Positions 6,610-13,247 of a stretch of DNA of 32,338 nucleotides are shown here, piece by piece. Position 1 is the stretch's first letter, and each line of letters opens with the position of its first letter. The DNA comes from Clostridiales bacterium (GTDB taxonomy: Bacteria > Bacillota > Clostridia > Christensenellales > Borkfalkiaceae), in assembly GCA_015069285.1 (NCBI GenBank), contig SVIX01000011.1:1-32338 (forward strand). The letters are read 5' to 3'. The translations under genes were made by a program, and so were the position numbers. The notes beneath the pieces were generated by a model that worked only from the letters and a program-made list of their open reading frames with translations, was not told where the DNA came from and did not search any database.

Positions 6610-7812
6610 ATGCGCAAGAACGGAATTAATAAAGAACTCGTGGAAATAGAAGGAGGCGTGTGCGCTCCGCTTGGATTTTGTGCGAACGCAACCGTTTGCG
6701 GAATCTTAAACGGGAATAAAGAAGACTTGGCGCTGATTGCCTCGGAACGGCGCGTACCGACGGCTTGCGTTTTTTCAAAGGGAGGTATCCTTTCTCCCTC
6801 CGTCACCGTAACGCAAAAACATTTAAAATCCAATCGCGGACAAGCGCAGGCAATATTGCTAAACGGTGGCGTGGCGAATTTTTCCGAAGTCGGCGAAACG
6901 CTCGCGGAAAACGCTTGTCGGAGCTTGGAGCGTAAAGCGCAAATTTCCCGCGACGAAATCATCGTAATTTCTACGGGAAAAATAGGAGAAGTTTTTCCTT
7001 CTACCGCCTATTTGCAAGGAATAGAACGCCTTGCCGAAGGGCTAAATTGTTGCAAGGTCGCCTCGCAAAAGGTGGCAAGAACAATCGCGCCGACGGCAGA
7101 AAGGGCGAGGCAAAAGGCGTTTTCCTTCCTTCTTGGCGATACGCCCTGCAAAATAGGCGCGGTTTTTCAAAAAGGGATACATAACGAAAAAACGCCGTCG
7201 GGCTTGGTTTGTTGTTTGACTACGGACGTGTGCATTACGTTCGAACGCTTACAAAAGGCGTTAGCGTCTGCCGTGCGTGAGTCCTTCGATTTATTATGCG
7301 TGGACGGCGCACCCTCTCCGTGTGATACCGTTTGCATAATGGCGAGCGGAAAGGCGGGGAATTATAAAATATCCGACGAGGATACCGAATACGATAAATT
7401 CCGTTATTTTTTAACGGAGGCTTTGAAAAAAATTTGTTTCGCGACGGCGAGCGTTTGTTCGGAAAATAAGGCGTTTTCTTGCCGAGTGGAAGGCGCGAAA
7501 TCCGCGCGTCTTGCGAAAACGGTAGCGAAAGCGTTGGCTTATTCGCAGACGGTCAAACGCATTTTTTCCGATTTGGAAACGGACGCGGAAGGGATACTTT
7601 GCGAATTGCACGCAGTATCCGAACGCATAGTTTTAGAACGACTGTCTTTCACGCTAAAATCAAGTACGGGCGAGGCGGTGCTTTTCGAGGACGGAAAATG
7701 CGCGAACTTTCAAGAAAACGCTTTGAAAAGAATTGTTTTAGGGGAAAGTACGGAGCTTTTCGTTCGGTTAGGAAGAGGGAATTATACCGCGTCTGCCATC
7801 GGGGTATTCTAA
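6610..7812 (+). CDS. Divergent ArgJ-family protein lacking the processing Thr
   Basis: 400 residues, the normal length for ornithine/glutamate N-acetyltransferase ArgJ. The fold is recognisable throughout: an N-terminal GGVCAPLGF, STGKIG at residues 121-126 (the oxyanion Thr-Gly is kept), LTTD at 203-206, and a VDGAPSPCDTVCIMASGKAGN region in place of the usual DGDTSTNDT...NG.A. In active ArgJ the precursor cleaves itself before a Thr in an Ala-Thr-Met-Leu motif. The ungapped equivalent here is Ser197-Gly198-Leu-Val, so the nucleophile is missing. The NSGNAN-like loop reads NGGVAN, and the C-terminal NWGRI and tyrosine-rich motifs are eroded. The frame is intact. Acetyltransferase activity is doubtful; it may be a pseudo-enzyme. 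No other arg-specific gene is present except carAB. Confidence 0.75.
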   Translation: MRKNGINKELVEIEGGVCAPLGFCANATVCGILNGNKEDLALIASERRVPTACVFSKGGILSPSVTVTQKHLKSNRGQAQAILLNGGVANFSEVGETLAENACRSLERKAQISRDEIIVISTGKIGEVFPSTAYLQGIERLAEGLNCCKVASQKVARTIAPTAERARQKAFSFLLGDTPCKIGAVFQKGIHNEKTPSGLVCCLTTDVCITFERLQKALASAVRESFDLLCVDGAPSPCDTVCIMASGKAGNYKISDEDTEYDKFRYFLTEALKKICFATASVCSENKAFSCRVEGAKSARLAKTVAKALAYSQTVKRIFSDLETDAEGILCELHAVSERIVLERLSFTLKSSTGEAVLFEDGKCANFQENALKRIVLGESTELFVRLGRGNYTASAIGVF

Positions 7813-7852: not shown

Positions 7853-7881
7853 TTGACAAGAAAGTAAGCTTGTGTTATAAT
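7853..7881 (+). promoter_or_regulatory. Consensus promoter of the carA leader
   Basis: TTGACA (7853-7858), 17 bases, TATAAT (7876-7881). It starts a leader transcript near 7888, about 244 bases before carA. Confidence 0.88.
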
Positions 7882-7905
7882 AGTAAAAATTCGGCAGGTG
7901 GAAGT

Positions 7906-8028
7906 ATGTTTTTAGCAAAAAACAAAAAAATGAACGGAATAGAAGCAAACGAAAGGGCAGTTGCCGTTTTCGCGGATTCTTATTTTTTCATTCTTCCAAT
8001 AAACGCAAAACTTCTACAACGGGACTGA
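7906..8028 (+). CDS. Putative leader peptide of the carA attenuator
   Basis: A 40-codon ORF (MFLAKNKKMNGIEANERAVA..., ending KLLQRD) begins about 18 bases after the predicted transcription start and is preceded by a GGTGGAAG ribosome site. The TGA at 8026-8028 falls within the 5' arm of the following terminator hairpin. A U-rich tract in the RNA, within 7978-7997, encodes the SYFFILP stretch. Arg codons are not clustered (two, far apart), which argues against arginine-codon attenuation. The geometry resembles the E. coli pyrBI leader, where slow polymerase at low UTP lets the ribosome catch up and block the terminator. Translation is inferred. Confidence 0.6.
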   Translation: MFLAKNKKMNGIEANERAVAVFADSYFFILPINAKLLQRD

Positions 8029-8051
8029 TTTTTGAAATCAGTCTTTTTTTT
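8023..8051 (+). terminator. Attenuator-type terminator upstream of carA
   Basis: GACTGATTT (8023-8031), loop TTG, AAATCAGTC (8035-8043) form a perfect nine-pair stem followed directly by eight T (8044-8051). It lies after the leader promoter and 80 bases before carA, so transcription must read through it to express carA and carB-dapF. Confidence 0.88.
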
Positions 8052-8131
8052 AGAAAAAAGCAAAAAAGGGTTTGCCTGCTTGTAAAATAGGATAATAATA
8101 AAAATTACGAGTTATAAAAAAGGAAGTGCTT

Positions 8132-9199
8132 ATGAAGAAAAAAGTGTATGTAACGTTGCAAAACGGAAAGACTTTCCAAGGTTATCGCTTTGGCGCGGAA
8201 GGCGAAGTTTCGGGTGAATTGGTGTTTTCGACGAATATGGTCGGCTACGTAGAAACGCTTACCGACCCTACTAATTACGGTCAAATCCTCGTGCAAACCT
8301 TTCCCCTGATAGGCAATTACGGCGTAATGCAAGCAGACATGGAAAGCAAGCGCGCGTGGGCAAAGGCTTTTATCGTCCGCGAGGCGTGTGAAATACCCTC
8401 TAATTTCCGTTCGGAAGGTACGCTCGACGCATTTTTGAAAGAACAAAACGTCGTCGGCGTATACGGTATCGACACGCGTGAACTGACGAAAATTTTGCGT
8501 GAAGAAGGCACGATGACGGCGGTAATAAGTAATAAGCCGTCTACCTCCGTCGACGCGGAAAACGCCGAAGAGGATTGCGTGAAAATCGTCGCGCCGACGC
8601 AAAGAGAAACTTACGGCGCGGAAAATGCGAAATATACGCTTGCTTTGTTGAATTTAGGTACGAAAAAAAGCATTATCGAAGGATTCGTAAATCAAAACTG
8701 TCGTATCGTCAGTTTGCCTGCTACGGCAACGGCGGAAGAAATTTTATCCGTCGGCGCGGACGGCGTCGTGATTGGCGACGGTCCGGGAAATCCCAAAGCA
8801 AATTTGGATATCGTGGAAGAGATTAAAAAACTCGTTGGAAAAACGCCTGTGTTTGGCGTAGGGCTTGGACATTTGCTCTTTGCGCTTGCGCTCGGCGCGG
8901 ATACGAAAAAACTTAAATACGGACACCGTGGCGGAAATCAACCCGTAAAATGTTTAAAATGCGGAAAGGTATATATTTCTACGCAAAACCACGCGTACGA
9001 AGTAGTAAGCGAAACGGTAAATAAAGGAGAAGTGCGTTTTATCAACGTCAACGACAATTCCTGCGAAGGTATCGTATACGACGAAATGAACGCGCTCACC
9101 GTCCAATTTGCGCCCGATTCGTTCGGCGTCGGTCACGTCGATAATCCGTTATACAAAAAATTCTTTACTTTTATGAAGAAGGAGAACGAAAATGCCTAA
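8132..9199 (+). CDS. carA: Carbamoyl-phosphate synthase small subunit, glutaminase triad lost
   Basis: 355 residues from the ATG at 8132 (AAAGGAAG just upstream; a GTG two codons earlier is less likely). The N-terminal CarA domain (about 1-150) is normal: TLQNGKTFQGYRFGAEG, VFSTNMVGYVETLTDP and YGIDTRELTKILR. The class I amidotransferase domain follows (about 165-350). It keeps the surroundings LGH, KLKYGHRGGNQPV and STQNHAYEV. The nucleophile Cys of GxCLGH is Gly244 (GVGLGH). The His and Glu of QFHPE are Ala327 and Asp329 (QFAPDS). Glutamine hydrolysis should be abolished, so the synthetase probably uses free ammonia, as mammalian CPS I does after losing its Cys. The stop overlaps the carB start by eight bases, which suggests coupled translation. 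Confidence 0.92.
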   Translation: MKKKVYVTLQNGKTFQGYRFGAEGEVSGELVFSTNMVGYVETLTDPTNYGQILVQTFPLIGNYGVMQADMESKRAWAKAFIVREACEIPSNFRSEGTLDAFLKEQNVVGVYGIDTRELTKILREEGTMTAVISNKPSTSVDAENAEEDCVKIVAPTQRETYGAENAKYTLALLNLGTKKSIIEGFVNQNCRIVSLPATATAEEILSVGADGVVIGDGPGNPKANLDIVEEIKKLVGKTPVFGVGLGHLLFALALGADTKKLKYGHRGGNQPVKCLKCGKVYISTQNHAYEVVSETVNKGEVRFINVNDNSCEGIVYDEMNALTVQFAPDSFGVGHVDNPLYKKFFTFMKKENENA

Positions 9200-12100
9200 G
9201 AGAAGTGATATTAAAAAAGTACTCGTTATCGGGTCCGGTCCTATCGTTATCGGACAAGCCGCTGAATTCGACTATGCAGGCGCGCAAGCTTGTCGCGTTA
9301 TGAAAAGCGAAGGGGTGAACGTCGTTCTTTGTAACTCTAACCCCGCAACGATTATGACGGATAAGGCGCTTGCGGACGAAATATATCTTGAACCGCTTAC
9401 GGAAGAAACGTTAAAGCGTATTATCATCAAAGAAAAACCGGACAGTTTGCTCGCCTCGCTCGGTGGACAAACGGGGCTTACGATGGGTTGTAAATTGGCA
9501 AAATCGGGATTTTTAGAACAGCACGGCGTAAAGCTTATCGGTACGAAACTTGACGCGATTGACCGTTCGGAAGATAGAGAACTTTTCAAACAAACGATGG
9601 AAAAAATCAATCAACCGTGCGTGCCTTCGGATATCGCGTATACGGTAGAGGAATGTGTGGAGATAGCAAACAAACTCGGTTATCCCGTTATCATTCGTCC
9701 TGCGTATACCCTCGGTGGCGCAGGTGGCGGTGTGGCGTATACGGAAGAGGAACTCCGCCTCATTTCACACAACGGCTTGATGCTTTCGCCCATTACGCAA
9801 GTGCTTATCGAAAAGTATATCGCGGGCTGGAAAGAAATTGAATTTGAAGTATTGCGCGACGGTGCAGGGAACGTACTTACCGTATGTTCTATGGAAAACG
9901 TAGACCCCGTTGGAATCCATACGGGCGATTCTATCGTCGTTGCCCCTGCGGTTACGCTGTCTAATAAAGAATACAGTATGCTCCGCGGAGCGGCGCTTTC
10001 GATTATTAGCGAACTTGGTATTGAAGGCGGGTGCAACGTACAGTTTGCGCTTAATCCCGATTCCTTTGAATATTCGGTAATCGAAGTAAACCCTCGCGTT
10101 AGCCGTTCTTCGGCGCTTGCCTCTAAGGCAACGGGTTTCCCGATTGCAAAGGTGACTTCCAAGATTGCGCTTGGATATACGCTCGACGAAATTGTAAACG
10201 ACGTAACGGGCAATACCTACGCTTGTTTCGAACCGACGATTGACTACTTGGTTGTCAAAATGCCCAAGTGGCCGTTTGATAAATTCTTGTACGCAAAGCG
10301 TGAACTCGGTACGAGAATGAAAGCGACGGGCGAAGTGATGTCGATTGGTACTTCGTTTGAAATGGCGATGATGAAAGCCGTGCGCGGTGCGGAAATTTCC
10401 ACGAGCACGATGAACTATAAAAAATTCGTGGATTGGACGAAGGAGGCGCTTATTGCGCAACTTTCCGTACAATCGGACGAACGCATTTTTGCCGTATACG
10501 CGGCGCTTAAAAAGGGCGTAAGCGTAGACGAAGTATTTAATATTACCAAAATAGATAGATGGTTCTTGAATAAATTCAAGAATTTAATAGCCTACGAAGA
10601 AGCGTTAAAAACGCAAAAACTTACGCGCGCCTTGTACGAAGAGGGCAAACGCCTTGGGTATTTGGATAAAGACATTGCGCTTATCAGCGGTCAAAAAGTA
10701 CCTTATCGCAAAAAAGTCGCGTATAAAATGGTAGATACCTGCGCGGCGGAATTCCCCGCGAAAACGCCGTATTTCTATTCGACTTCCGACCCTTACGAAC
10801 ACGACGAGGCAAAACCTTTTATCGAAAAGAGCAATAAAAAGCGTATCGTCGTTATCGGGTCCGGACCTATCCGTATCGGACAGGGTATAGAGTTTGACTA
10901 TTCGTCCGTGCATTGTGTTTGGACGCTTAAAGAACTCGGGTACGAAGTAGCGATTATCAACAATAACCCCGAAACGGTTTCCACCGACTTTGATACGGCG
11001 GACAGACTGTATTTCGAGCCGTTGACGCCCGAAGACGTACAACACGTTTTGGACATTGAAAAACCGTACGGCGTCATTATTACCTTCGGCGGACAAACGG
11101 CAATCAACCTTTGCGCGTATTTCGCTTCGCACGGTATCCGTATTTTGGGTACGTCGGCGGACAGCGTTGACAGAGCGGAAGACAGAGAGCGTTTTGAGGC
11201 GTTGCTTGAAAAATACTCGATTCCGCGCCCGAAAGCAATTACCGTAATGACGAAAGAGGAGGCGCTTAAGGCGGCGGATAAATTGGAATATCCCGTACTG
11301 CTCCGTCCTTCCTACGTTATCGGCGGACAAAATATGACGATTGCCTTCACGCAAGAGGACGTTTGTCGTTATATGGACGTTATATTGGCGCAAGGCATAG
11401 AAAATCCCGTACTTTGCGATAAATATTTAATGGGTACGGAATTGGAAGTAGACGCCATTTCCGACGGCAAAGACGTATTAATTCCCGGCATTATGCAACA
11501 CATTGAACGTACGGGTATTCACTCGGGCGACTCCATCGCCGTATATCCGCCGTACAATCTTGACGATACGATGCTCGAAAAAATTATCGAAGTATCTACC
11601 CAACTTGCGTTGGAATTGCAAACGAAGGGTTTAATCAATATTCAGTATCTTATCTATCGCGGTCAACTCTACGTAATCGAGGTGAATCCCAGAGCGTCGC
11701 GTACCGTTCCGTATATTTCAAAGGTAACGGGCGTGCCGATGGTAGAACTTGCAACGAAGATTATTACGGGCGCAAAATTGAAAAAGCTCGGATACGGAAC
11801 GGGCTTATATCCTTCTTCCCCGTACGTCGCGGTAAAAGTTCCCGTGTTCAGTTTTGAAAAACTCAACGACGTAAACTCGCAACTCGGTCCGCAAATGAAA
11901 TCGACGGGCGAGGTATTGGGTATCGGTAAAACGATAGAAGAGGCGATGTTCAAAGGGCTCGTGTCGGCAGGCTTTAAAATGTGTCATCCTTCCGAACGCC
12001 GTCCCGTAGGCGTATATATGACGGTAAACGACCAAGACAAACTCGATTTGTTGACGATAGCGAAAAAGTTTGGGGACTTAGGTTGTACGATGTACGCAAC

Positions 12101-13247
12101 CAAAGGAACGGCGGAAGTTATCAACGATTTGGGTATTGATTGTACCGTAGTGGATAGACTCTCCGCAACGGATAGCGTTATCAAATTGATGGACGAAGGC
12201 AAGATTGATTACGTCGTATATACCGGTAAAACGGATATGGAATCGATTAACGATTTCATCAAATTACACCACCACGCGATATTGCTCGGTATTACGGTAC
12301 TGACGGCGTTGGATACGGCAAACGCGCTTGCGGATATTATCGCAAGTAAATTCACGGAAGACAATACCGAACTTGTAGACATCAACGCGTTGCGTAGTGA
12401 AAAATTAAAACTTAATTTCACAAAAATGCAATCCTGCGGAAACGATTATATCGTCTTTGATAACCGCGACGGAAAAATAACCTGTCCCGAATCGATTGCC
12501 GTCAATTACGTATTACCGCATTACGGAATCGGGGGCGACGGAATTGCGCTTATCGAACATTCGGATATAGCCGACGCGAAAATGCGCGTATTTAATAAAG
12601 ACGGTTCAGAGGCAACGCAAGGCGGTAACGCTATCCGTTGTATTGGAAAATACCTTTACGAAAAGGGTATCGTCCGTAAAACGGAGATGAAAATAGAAAC
12701 GGCGACGGGCGTTTGCGACGTAAAAGTATATTCTTTTGGCGGAAAGGTGAATTCGGCAAGCGTAAATTTGGGAAAAGTACAACTTGCAGGCAAAAAGATT
12801 CCTTGTACCTTTGACGAAGAACAAATCGTCGGTAAAACGGTCAGCGTCGGCGGTATTGATTATAAGATAACGCTCGTCAACGTGGGAAATCCCCATTGCG
12901 TAGTGTTCAGCGAAAAAGTAGACGCCGTCAACGTGGAAACGATTGGCCCTGAATTTGAAAATTGTGAATATTTCCCCGAGGGAATCAATACGGAATTTAT
13001 CCGCGTGGTCAATAAAGTCACCTTAAAAATGCGCGTTTGGGAGCGCGGTAGCGGTGAAACGTGGGCGTGCGGAACGGGCGCGTGCGCCGCAGTCGTAGCG
13101 GCGGTGCTTGGCGGGTATTGCGAAAAAGATACCAACGTTACCGTGAAACTTCGCGGAGGCGACTTGACGGTAAACTATCACTTAGACGGTGACGTAGAAT
13201 TGATGGGTAGCGTAAAGACTGTATACGAAGGAACGTTGGAAATTTAA
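9192..13247 (+). CDS. carB: CarB-DapF fusion: carbamoyl-phosphate synthase large chain plus diaminopimelate epimerase-like domain
   Basis: 1351 residues in one frame. Residues 1-400 and about 550-930 are the two ATP-grasp synthetase halves (GSGPIVIGQAAEFDYAG / GSGPIRIGQGIEFDYSS; EVNPRVSRSSALASKATG / EVNPRASRTVPYISKVTG). Residues about 930-1062 are the MGS-like allosteric domain (YATKGTAEV). A short linker leads at about 1074 into a complete DapF-type domain: KMQSCGNDYIVFD, GIGGDG, VGNPHCVV, ERGSGETWACGTGACAA. No stop or ribosome site separates them; the first in-frame ATG in the DapF part (12426) lies inside its first motif. In DapF the first catalytic Cys (CGNG/CGNA) is Gly1144 (QGGNA); the second, Cys1293, is present. 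Carbamoyl-phosphate synthesis looks intact, while epimerase activity is doubtful. Confidence 0.93.
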   Translation: MPKRSDIKKVLVIGSGPIVIGQAAEFDYAGAQACRVMKSEGVNVVLCNSNPATIMTDKALADEIYLEPLTEETLKRIIIKEKPDSLLASLGGQTGLTMGCKLAKSGFLEQHGVKLIGTKLDAIDRSEDRELFKQTMEKINQPCVPSDIAYTVEECVEIANKLGYPVIIRPAYTLGGAGGGVAYTEEELRLISHNGLMLSPITQVLIEKYIAGWKEIEFEVLRDGAGNVLTVCSMENVDPVGIHTGDSIVVAPAVTLSNKEYSMLRGAALSIISELGIEGGCNVQFALNPDSFEYSVIEVNPRVSRSSALASKATGFPIAKVTSKIALGYTLDEIVNDVTGNTYACFEPTIDYLVVKMPKWPFDKFLYAKRELGTRMKATGEVMSIGTSFEMAMMKAVRGAEISTSTMNYKKFVDWTKEALIAQLSVQSDERIFAVYAALKKGVSVDEVFNITKIDRWFLNKFKNLIAYEEALKTQKLTRALYEEGKRLGYLDKDIALISGQKVPYRKKVAYKMVDTCAAEFPAKTPYFYSTSDPYEHDEAKPFIEKSNKKRIVVIGSGPIRIGQGIEFDYSSVHCVWTLKELGYEVAIINNNPETVSTDFDTADRLYFEPLTPEDVQHVLDIEKPYGVIITFGGQTAINLCAYFASHGIRILGTSADSVDRAEDRERFEALLEKYSIPRPKAITVMTKEEALKAADKLEYPVLLRPSYVIGGQNMTIAFTQEDVCRYMDVILAQGIENPVLCDKYLMGTELEVDAISDGKDVLIPGIMQHIERTGIHSGDSIAVYPPYNLDDTMLEKIIEVSTQLALELQTKGLINIQYLIYRGQLYVIEVNPRASRTVPYISKVTGVPMVELATKIITGAKLKKLGYGTGLYPSSPYVAVKVPVFSFEKLNDVNSQLGPQMKSTGEVLGIGKTIEEAMFKGLVSAGFKMCHPSERRPVGVYMTVNDQDKLDLLTIAKKFGDLGCTMYATKGTAEVINDLGIDCTVVDRLSATDSVIKLMDEGKIDYVVYTGKTDMESINDFIKLHHHAILLGITVLTALDTANALADIIASKFTEDNTELVDINALRSEKLKLNFTKMQSCGNDYIVFDNRDGKITCPESIAVNYVLPHYGIGGDGIALIEHSDIADAKMRVFNKDGSEATQGGNAIRCIGKYLYEKGIVRKTEMKIETATGVCDVKVYSFGGKVNSASVNLGKVQLAGKKIPCTFDEEQIVGKTVSVGGIDYKITLVNVGNPHCVVFSEKVDAVNVETIGPEFENCEYFPEGINTEFIRVVNKVTLKMRVWERGSGETWACGTGACAAVVAAVLGGYCEKDTNVTVKLRGGDLTVNYHLDGDVELMGSVKTVYEGTLEI

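Follow-up and report, generated by a model that had tools for sequence, protein, structure and literature searches.

PyrR-dependent attenuation is the usual control of pyr genes in Gram-positive bacteria such as Bacillus and Lactobacillus, where an intrinsic terminator stands before pyrimidine genes as it does here, and amino-acid leader attenuators such as trp and his combine a leader peptide with a terminator. The described system closest to the one we report is E. coli pyrBI, with which our leader shares a promoter, a short ORF, a U-rich run, an intrinsic terminator and a place in the carbamoyl-phosphate pathway; a further likeness is translation that, judging by the open ORF, would reach the hairpin. 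In the E. coli leader, pyrL, the -10 element lies 25 nt from the ATG and the ATG lies 88 nt from the stem (the median is 121 nt in the present leaders). Between the end of the GTTTTTCTT run of pyrL and the stem there are 20 nt; the T-richest 20-nt window picked by our script lies elsewhere, 59 nt before the stem. At E. coli rph-pyrE, the position at which the upstream enzyme gene stops relative to the attenuator sets pyrE expression according to pyrimidine supply (PMC2784333). A terminator within a few base pairs of a stop codon was reported to be almost fully repressed by ribosomes in E. coli, and amino-acid attenuators to have their terminator more than 20 bp from the stop (PMC4824070). For B. 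subtilis, it was reported that terminators lie near stops, that transcription outruns ribosomes so that a nearby stop does not prevent termination, and that the two processes are mostly uncoupled, short stop-to-terminator distances being read as a sign of wide spread (PMC7858274). Before carA itself, the carA motif RNA of Polynucleobacter was described as a leader element without a second promoter; it is an extended imperfect hairpin of beta-proteobacteria, proposed to be a riboswitch, and the excerpt of that report used here mentions no leader ORF (PMC8632094). No printed report of a carA leader like the present one was found in the open-licence PMC literature.

The window analyzed here, the whole stretch of 32,338 nucleotides, is contig C34 of a 1.41-Mb metagenome-assembled genome (MAG) that is 76% complete. 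Its leader (Table 1) differs from pyrBI in preceding carA, in belonging to a Clostridia MAG, in having an ORF that stops within the 5' arm of the hairpin and in standing in the place of argB.

Table 1. The carA leader and adjacent genes in the window
Feature	Positions	Strand	Remarks
Leader promoter	7853..7881	+	TTGACA-17-TATAAT, TG before -10; 12/12 consensus
Ribosome-binding site of leader ORF	7896..7901	+	AGGTGG; read from sequence
Leader ORF	7906..8028	+	40 codons, ATG start; peptide MFLAKNKKMNGIEANERAVAVFADSYFFILPINAKLLQRD
U-rich tract	7978..7997	+	TCTTATTTTTTCATTCTTCC; putative RNA polymerase pause site
Intrinsic terminator hairpin	8021..8045	+	Nine perfect pairs plus two G-U
T run of terminator	8044..8051	+	Eight T
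carA	8132..9199	+	Carbamoyl-phosphate synthetase small subunit; glutaminase Cys and His replaced
carB-dapF fusion	9192..13247	+	1351 aa; single ORF with CPSase large-chain and DAP_epimerase domains
argJ-family gene (PF01960)	6610..7812	+	arg-cluster leftover; active-site block altered

The carA leader in the window and in its genus

The first-pass annotation of this DNA had described a promoter, a 40-codon ORF with a ribosome site, a U-tract and a hairpin followed by eight T. All of these are present in that order, and the TGA of the ORF (8026-8028) lies within the 5' arm of the hairpin, as had been claimed. The same stop geometry had also been ascribed to E. coli pyrBI; this was mistaken, since pyrL runs through its terminator and stops 44 nt after the start of the stem. 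A stop within the 5' arm is, in the sequences compared, a geometry peculiar to the window's lineage. In the window taken singly, terminator and leader fold are unremarkable: the 2-kb region holds four terminator-like sites against 3.8 expected from shuffles, and the fold has a z of -1.54, with 14 of 200 shuffles equally good. A tRNA was the sole match in an Rfam search of the window. In one sequence the parts of the leader are no better than chance, the perfect promoter excepted, and it is comparison that decides.

In the window's genus, 36 of 57 genomes have this layout of promoter, ORF, tract and hairpin before carA. Of these leaders, 27 were taken from the neighbors of carA, and the other nine came mostly through a covariance model of tract and terminator built from the 27, which match it by construction. 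The model search matched 42 genomes, comprising the 36 leaders, five argB tails (discussed below) and, in G069 (7e-4), a site that proved on inspection to be an unrelated terminator. TTGACA-17-TATAAT is found in 35 of the 36 leaders, the first 27 of which were located with a pattern demanding both hexamers, and G067 has TATACT with an 18-nt spacer; AGGTG is within the consensus of the 27. The ORFs have 37-48 codons. Their frame is open into the hairpin in all 36 leaders, against 5.3 expected from dinucleotide shuffles, and the two remaining frames are open in 2 and 5 of them; since the leaders share descent, these figures and the codon figures below serve as guides and not as probabilities. 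In 34 leaders the ORF ends, as in the window, at a TGA in the 5' arm; in G026 it ends 7 nt later, in G034 it continues through the terminator, and none of the 36 stops before the hairpin. With 36 of 57 congeners sharing the layout and every frame open, the comparison removes chance as an explanation. The conservation predicted in the first-pass annotation, namely of the stop/hairpin overlap and the U-tract with a drifting peptide, was borne out on alignment, the peptide drifting outside one partly conserved motif.

An order-wide search with the same model matched 4 of 396 genomes, three of them congeners and the fourth, G219 (8e-4), taken as chance; this search missed the leaders of a second genus, which were found only on rechecking two loci (L169 and L174). 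Weak model matches in six genomes were fetched, and no such hairpin was present. The stem GACTGATTT/AAATCAGTC (8021-8045) is almost invariant from genus to genus, also in loci whose stop codon falls outside the stem. Such conservation exceeds what a plain terminator needs and counts against the UTP reading proposed below.

The argB junction in relatives and leaders of a second genus

Five congeners (G007, G015, G029, G075, G080) have this hairpin behind an intact argB, which has the same type of promoter and ends at a TGA in the 5' arm; argD comes after the hairpin. In four of the five, argF-carA-carB lies downstream, and the G075 contig ends in argF. G010 has argF-carA, its argB being off the contig. 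The first-pass annotation had counted relatives with the terminator and no ORF against its reading. Formally such relatives exist, but what they have in place of the short ORF is a full argB, which itself stops in or beside the hairpin. Of 35 more distant loci (L154-L188), 27 have the order argJ-argB-argD-argF-carA-carB. In five others the DNA breaks off within argB-argF, L172 starts only at carA, and at L169 and L174 no arg genes accompany carA. Among 31 argB loci examined, 25 have a terminator at the stop, which lies in the 5' arm in 15 and is separated from the hairpin by a gap of 1-4 nt in 10; in two of the other six, a hairpin missed by the scan was seen by eye.

With an enzyme gene that stops at a hairpin (in the five congeners and in 25 of the 31 argB loci), the argB-hairpin-argD junction resembles rph-pyrE. 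Unlike rph-pyrE, argB and argD belong to an arginine operon, and 36 species have a 37-48 codon ORF instead of the gene. In the CarA tree, G007, G010, G029 and G080 fall outside the leader clade and G015 is unresolved with it; the leader label requires two changes on the best tree and one in 31% of bootstrap trees. From the junction in relatives together with this tree, we infer that the leader occupies argB's place. Since the argB stop of relatives lies within or next to a hairpin of this kind, the leader most likely derives from the argB junction, and it seems that a gene-coupled junction of the rph-pyrE kind is what gives rise to leader attenuators here. The argB link suggests an origin separate from that of the enterobacterial pyrBI leaders, so that the leader would work like pyrBI without being a member of that family by descent.

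It was not supported that the leaders of the window's genus are visibly shrunken argB genes. Their C-terminal alignment with ArgB has a mean z of 0.2 over 36 leaders, the best being G071 (z 2.5); the best nucleotide match falls within the last 100 nt of argB in 3 of 36. When a wider argB set was used, 6 of 36 scored above all of their 8 shuffles. At the level of residues, the 36 leaders of this genus thus show no trace of argB. In G000 there is another arg cluster, a complete one (argG, H, C, J, B, D, F), alongside a pyr cluster and a single CarA.

L169 and L174 carry an ORF of 36-37 codons that ends at the same hairpin before carA. The genome of L169 is G577 (CarA 100% identical), which belongs to another genus, g26. 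Among the 30 g26 carA loci closest to L169, 10 have the hairpin and a short ORF and 20 have an argF end; nine of the 10 leaders were found by script and one, G601, whose TGA overlaps the base of the stem, by eye. Their ORFs have 35-50 codons. On a poorly resolved tree, the leader label changes about four or five times, and several origins or losses of the leader are likely in g26. These loci (L261-L290) offer a natural series for an attenuator leader forming from argB.

A trace of argB is visible in this genus. The leader peptide of G660, the one of nine tested that aligns with ArgB, matches residues 241-270 of 281 with a score of 46, which 0 of 200 shuffles reached, with a slight bias in its favor because the shuffles were compared with six ArgBs and the real peptide with all. 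The leader of its sister, G601, matches argB 732-782 of 846 in register as DNA, with a score of 32, the highest among 25 shuffles being 30. The same replacement in a second genus, together with this trace, makes a new origin more probable. We lean, though only slightly, towards the view that Clostridia evolved UTP-sensing leaders of the pyrBI kind afresh, on the spot and on more than one occasion. At an arginine-operon junction with the argB stop codon overlapping a weak terminator, the body of argB would have been lost with argD and argF, the promoter and hairpin kept and U-richness gained ahead of the hairpin, giving carAB a pyrimidine control of its own. Leader-peptide attenuators would then have originated step by step; if true, the family still shows a gene-coupled (rph-pyrE-like) and a leader-peptide (pyrBI-like) stage of one switch side by side. 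Neither the argB link nor the leaders of a second genus had been foreseen in the first-pass annotation.

The U-rich tract, the proposed attenuation and its alternatives

At -47..-28 relative to the TGA, T makes up 56% of the sequence in the 36 leaders, against 23% in the ORF upstream, and shuffling the codon order gave at most 39% in 2000 trials. We then asked about synonymous third positions, with the amino acids fixed, the codon usage of carA as the yardstick and shared descent ignored. T was found at 116 of 140 such positions at -51..-39 (46.0 expected, z 13.1) and at 87 of 123 at -39..-27 (46.0 expected, z 7.9), or 203 of 263 against 92 expected when both bins are pooled, and every one of the 36 leaders exceeds expectation. 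Over the 36 leaders there is no clear excess at -100..-51 (z -0.7 and 1.2); a weaker one runs from -27 to the stop (z 5.5 and 4.4), and another is seen at the far 5' end (-150..-100, z 3.4). Within the tract, Phe is encoded as TTT:TTC in a ratio of 62:6, compared with 280:291 in carA, Val is GTT in 28 of 29 codons, and all 19 CGN codons for Arg are CGT. Phe and Ser account for 23.6% and 19.4% of its residues, and first-position changes that preserve T (GTT/ATT/TTT/CTT) are common. The synonymous excess implies that the U-run is selected as nucleotides, which argues that sensing involves the RNA or its transcription and not the peptide or a charged tRNA. In the g26 leaders, T reaches 75% at -15..-3 of the stop; synonymous T is in excess at -27..-3 (z 6.1 and 6.3), and further at the 5' end (z 4.9) and at -51..-39 (z 3.4). 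Since the excess in g26 is nearest the stop and is also found elsewhere, the position of the tract is not constant between the genera.

Searches for other control elements were made in the same leaders. RNAalifold on 27 of them returned the terminator as the sole conserved structure, with double-sided changes in 3 of the 11 stem pairs. Pairing of the 5' arm with its best candidate upstream was no stronger than in shuffles (mean z 0.04 over 36 leaders; z below -2 in 3 of 36), and the duplex was stronger than the hairpin in 3 of 36; a competing antiterminator was therefore rejected. Promoter-like sites between hairpin and carA occur in 3 of 36 leaders against 4.1 expected from shuffles, with no excess and thus no sign of a hidden carA promoter. 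Unlike the trp and his attenuators, the leader has no codon run and no antiterminator, and its terminator overlaps the leader stop.

Based on these findings, we consider it fairly probable that the leader is a pyrBI-like, translation-coupled transcription attenuator of carA-carB-dapF with UTP as its signal, which supports the interpretation given in the first-pass annotation. Sequence support for an attenuator comes from the promoter, the open ORF and the selection for U, together with the lack of an antiterminator, a codon run or a second promoter; UTP as the signal we infer from the U-tract and the identity of the genes. Transcription would begin at the promoter (7853-7881) and by default get no further than the terminator (8021-8051), which is weak and AU-rich. 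Under UTP shortage, RNA polymerase would slow at the U-tract, some 24 nt upstream of the stem; a ribosome translating the leader ORF could then catch up and reach the UGA inside the 5' arm, where it would prevent the hairpin from folding, so that carAB-dapF would be transcribed. When UTP is plentiful, the polymerase would outrun the ribosome and terminate. If transcription and translation are uncoupled in this organism, a strong pause tract would be the more necessary. A conserved attenuator that needs a ribosome to catch a paused polymerase would let coupling in Clostridia be tested on a natural example.

A ribosome-coupled attenuator whose signal is not UTP but the rate of translation, arginine or another nucleotide, with the U-tract merely timing polymerase and ribosome, strikes us as possible though unlikely. 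In its favor, the arrangement in relatives gates argD-argF besides carAB, so that the first signal need not have been a pyrimidine, and PyrR is absent from g26 with either arrangement (0 of 20 genomes scanned, half of them with the leader and half with the operon form), which lowers our confidence in the UTP reading. That PyrR loss accompanies the leader is true in the window's genus but fails in g26, and it was dropped as strong evidence. Selection of U as nucleotides speaks against a signal other than UTP. Arginine-codon attenuation was rejected, as there is no run of Arg codons and their number is 0 to 5 per leader, with none at all in 4 of 36. If translation rate were the signal, slow ribosomes would give more termination, presumably the wrong sign for a biosynthetic gene that is short of its product.

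Arrest by the nascent peptide, in which the motif R-F-S-x-F-Q would stall the ribosome at the UGA and so mask the hairpin, appears improbable to us. The motif lies about 14 residues before the stop and is common to many leaders at a similar distance, and the tract is rich in Phe and Ser; against this, it is broken in several leaders, the window's included, and absent from those of g26, and within the tract the synonymous third positions are driven to T while first-position changes that keep T are frequent. We would give still less credence to a relic or stand-alone small gene with an ordinary terminator, carA being served by another promoter. Terminators near stops are indeed common in the lineage (8 of 13 found in a crude scan of 252 genes lie 0-11 nt after the stop), and the leader sits in argB's former place; however, none of those 13 gene-end terminators overlaps its stop codon, promoter-like sites before carA are not in excess, and ORF, tract and hairpin are kept across 36 species.

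PyrR-dependent attenuation of the carA leader can be set aside almost entirely, chiefly because the protein exceeded the cut-off in 0 of 36 leader genomes (MAG incompleteness is an unlikely explanation 36 times over), although it does so in 12 of the 21 other congeners (12 of 57 overall), including all six of the arg-operon type, and G002 has the RNA element. A PyrR motif, which would have spoken against the proposed attenuator, was looked for as RF00515; there was no match in the window or in 28 leader genomes, in a search that is weak, since it matched G002 and missed the other six of seven PyrR-bearing congeners.

Neighboring genes and a leader before pyrB

All 35 leader-type CarA proteins read have another residue in place of the glutaminase Cys (33 G, 1 E, 1 D), the CarA of G061, among the 36 leader genomes, being a fragment. 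The 33 that are readable at the His of QFHPE all have that residue replaced; G015 has lost both too. Cys and His are kept in G007, G010, G029, G080 and 36 of 36 distant loci (L154-L189), and the Cys in the 30 g26 genomes. A second CarA was found only in G011 and G013 among 28 leader genomes. These replacements suggest an ammonia-dependent bacterial carbamoyl-phosphate synthetase in the leader genomes. At the nucleophile site, G032 (L136, type 2) reads GVGLGY and G059 (L140) ISMGHQ; judging from these residues, their Cys losses are apparently independent. In the distant loci whose DNA reaches that far, dapF follows carB.

In the window's genome, PNMAT is missing from the argJ-family gene upstream of the leader; a second, normal argJ lies in a complete arg cluster on C47. 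A pattern search of 12 other leader-type loci found PNMAT in 8 and PNLAT in one, with no pattern match in three.

Another short leader with a terminator stands before pyrB in many PyrR-less genomes, for example at L094:9035-9145 (G000:C76). None was seen in the stretch inspected in several genomes with the carA leader, namely G063, G034, G036, G017, G031 and G073. From 30 fetched loci (upstream regions L231-L260), 17 such leaders were extracted, and the 12 loci searched gave no Rfam match for them. Eleven of the 17 share ACGAAAC, complementary to GTTTCGT of the terminator loop, and six have other loops. This upstream element is a candidate for an unknown pyrimidine attenuator.
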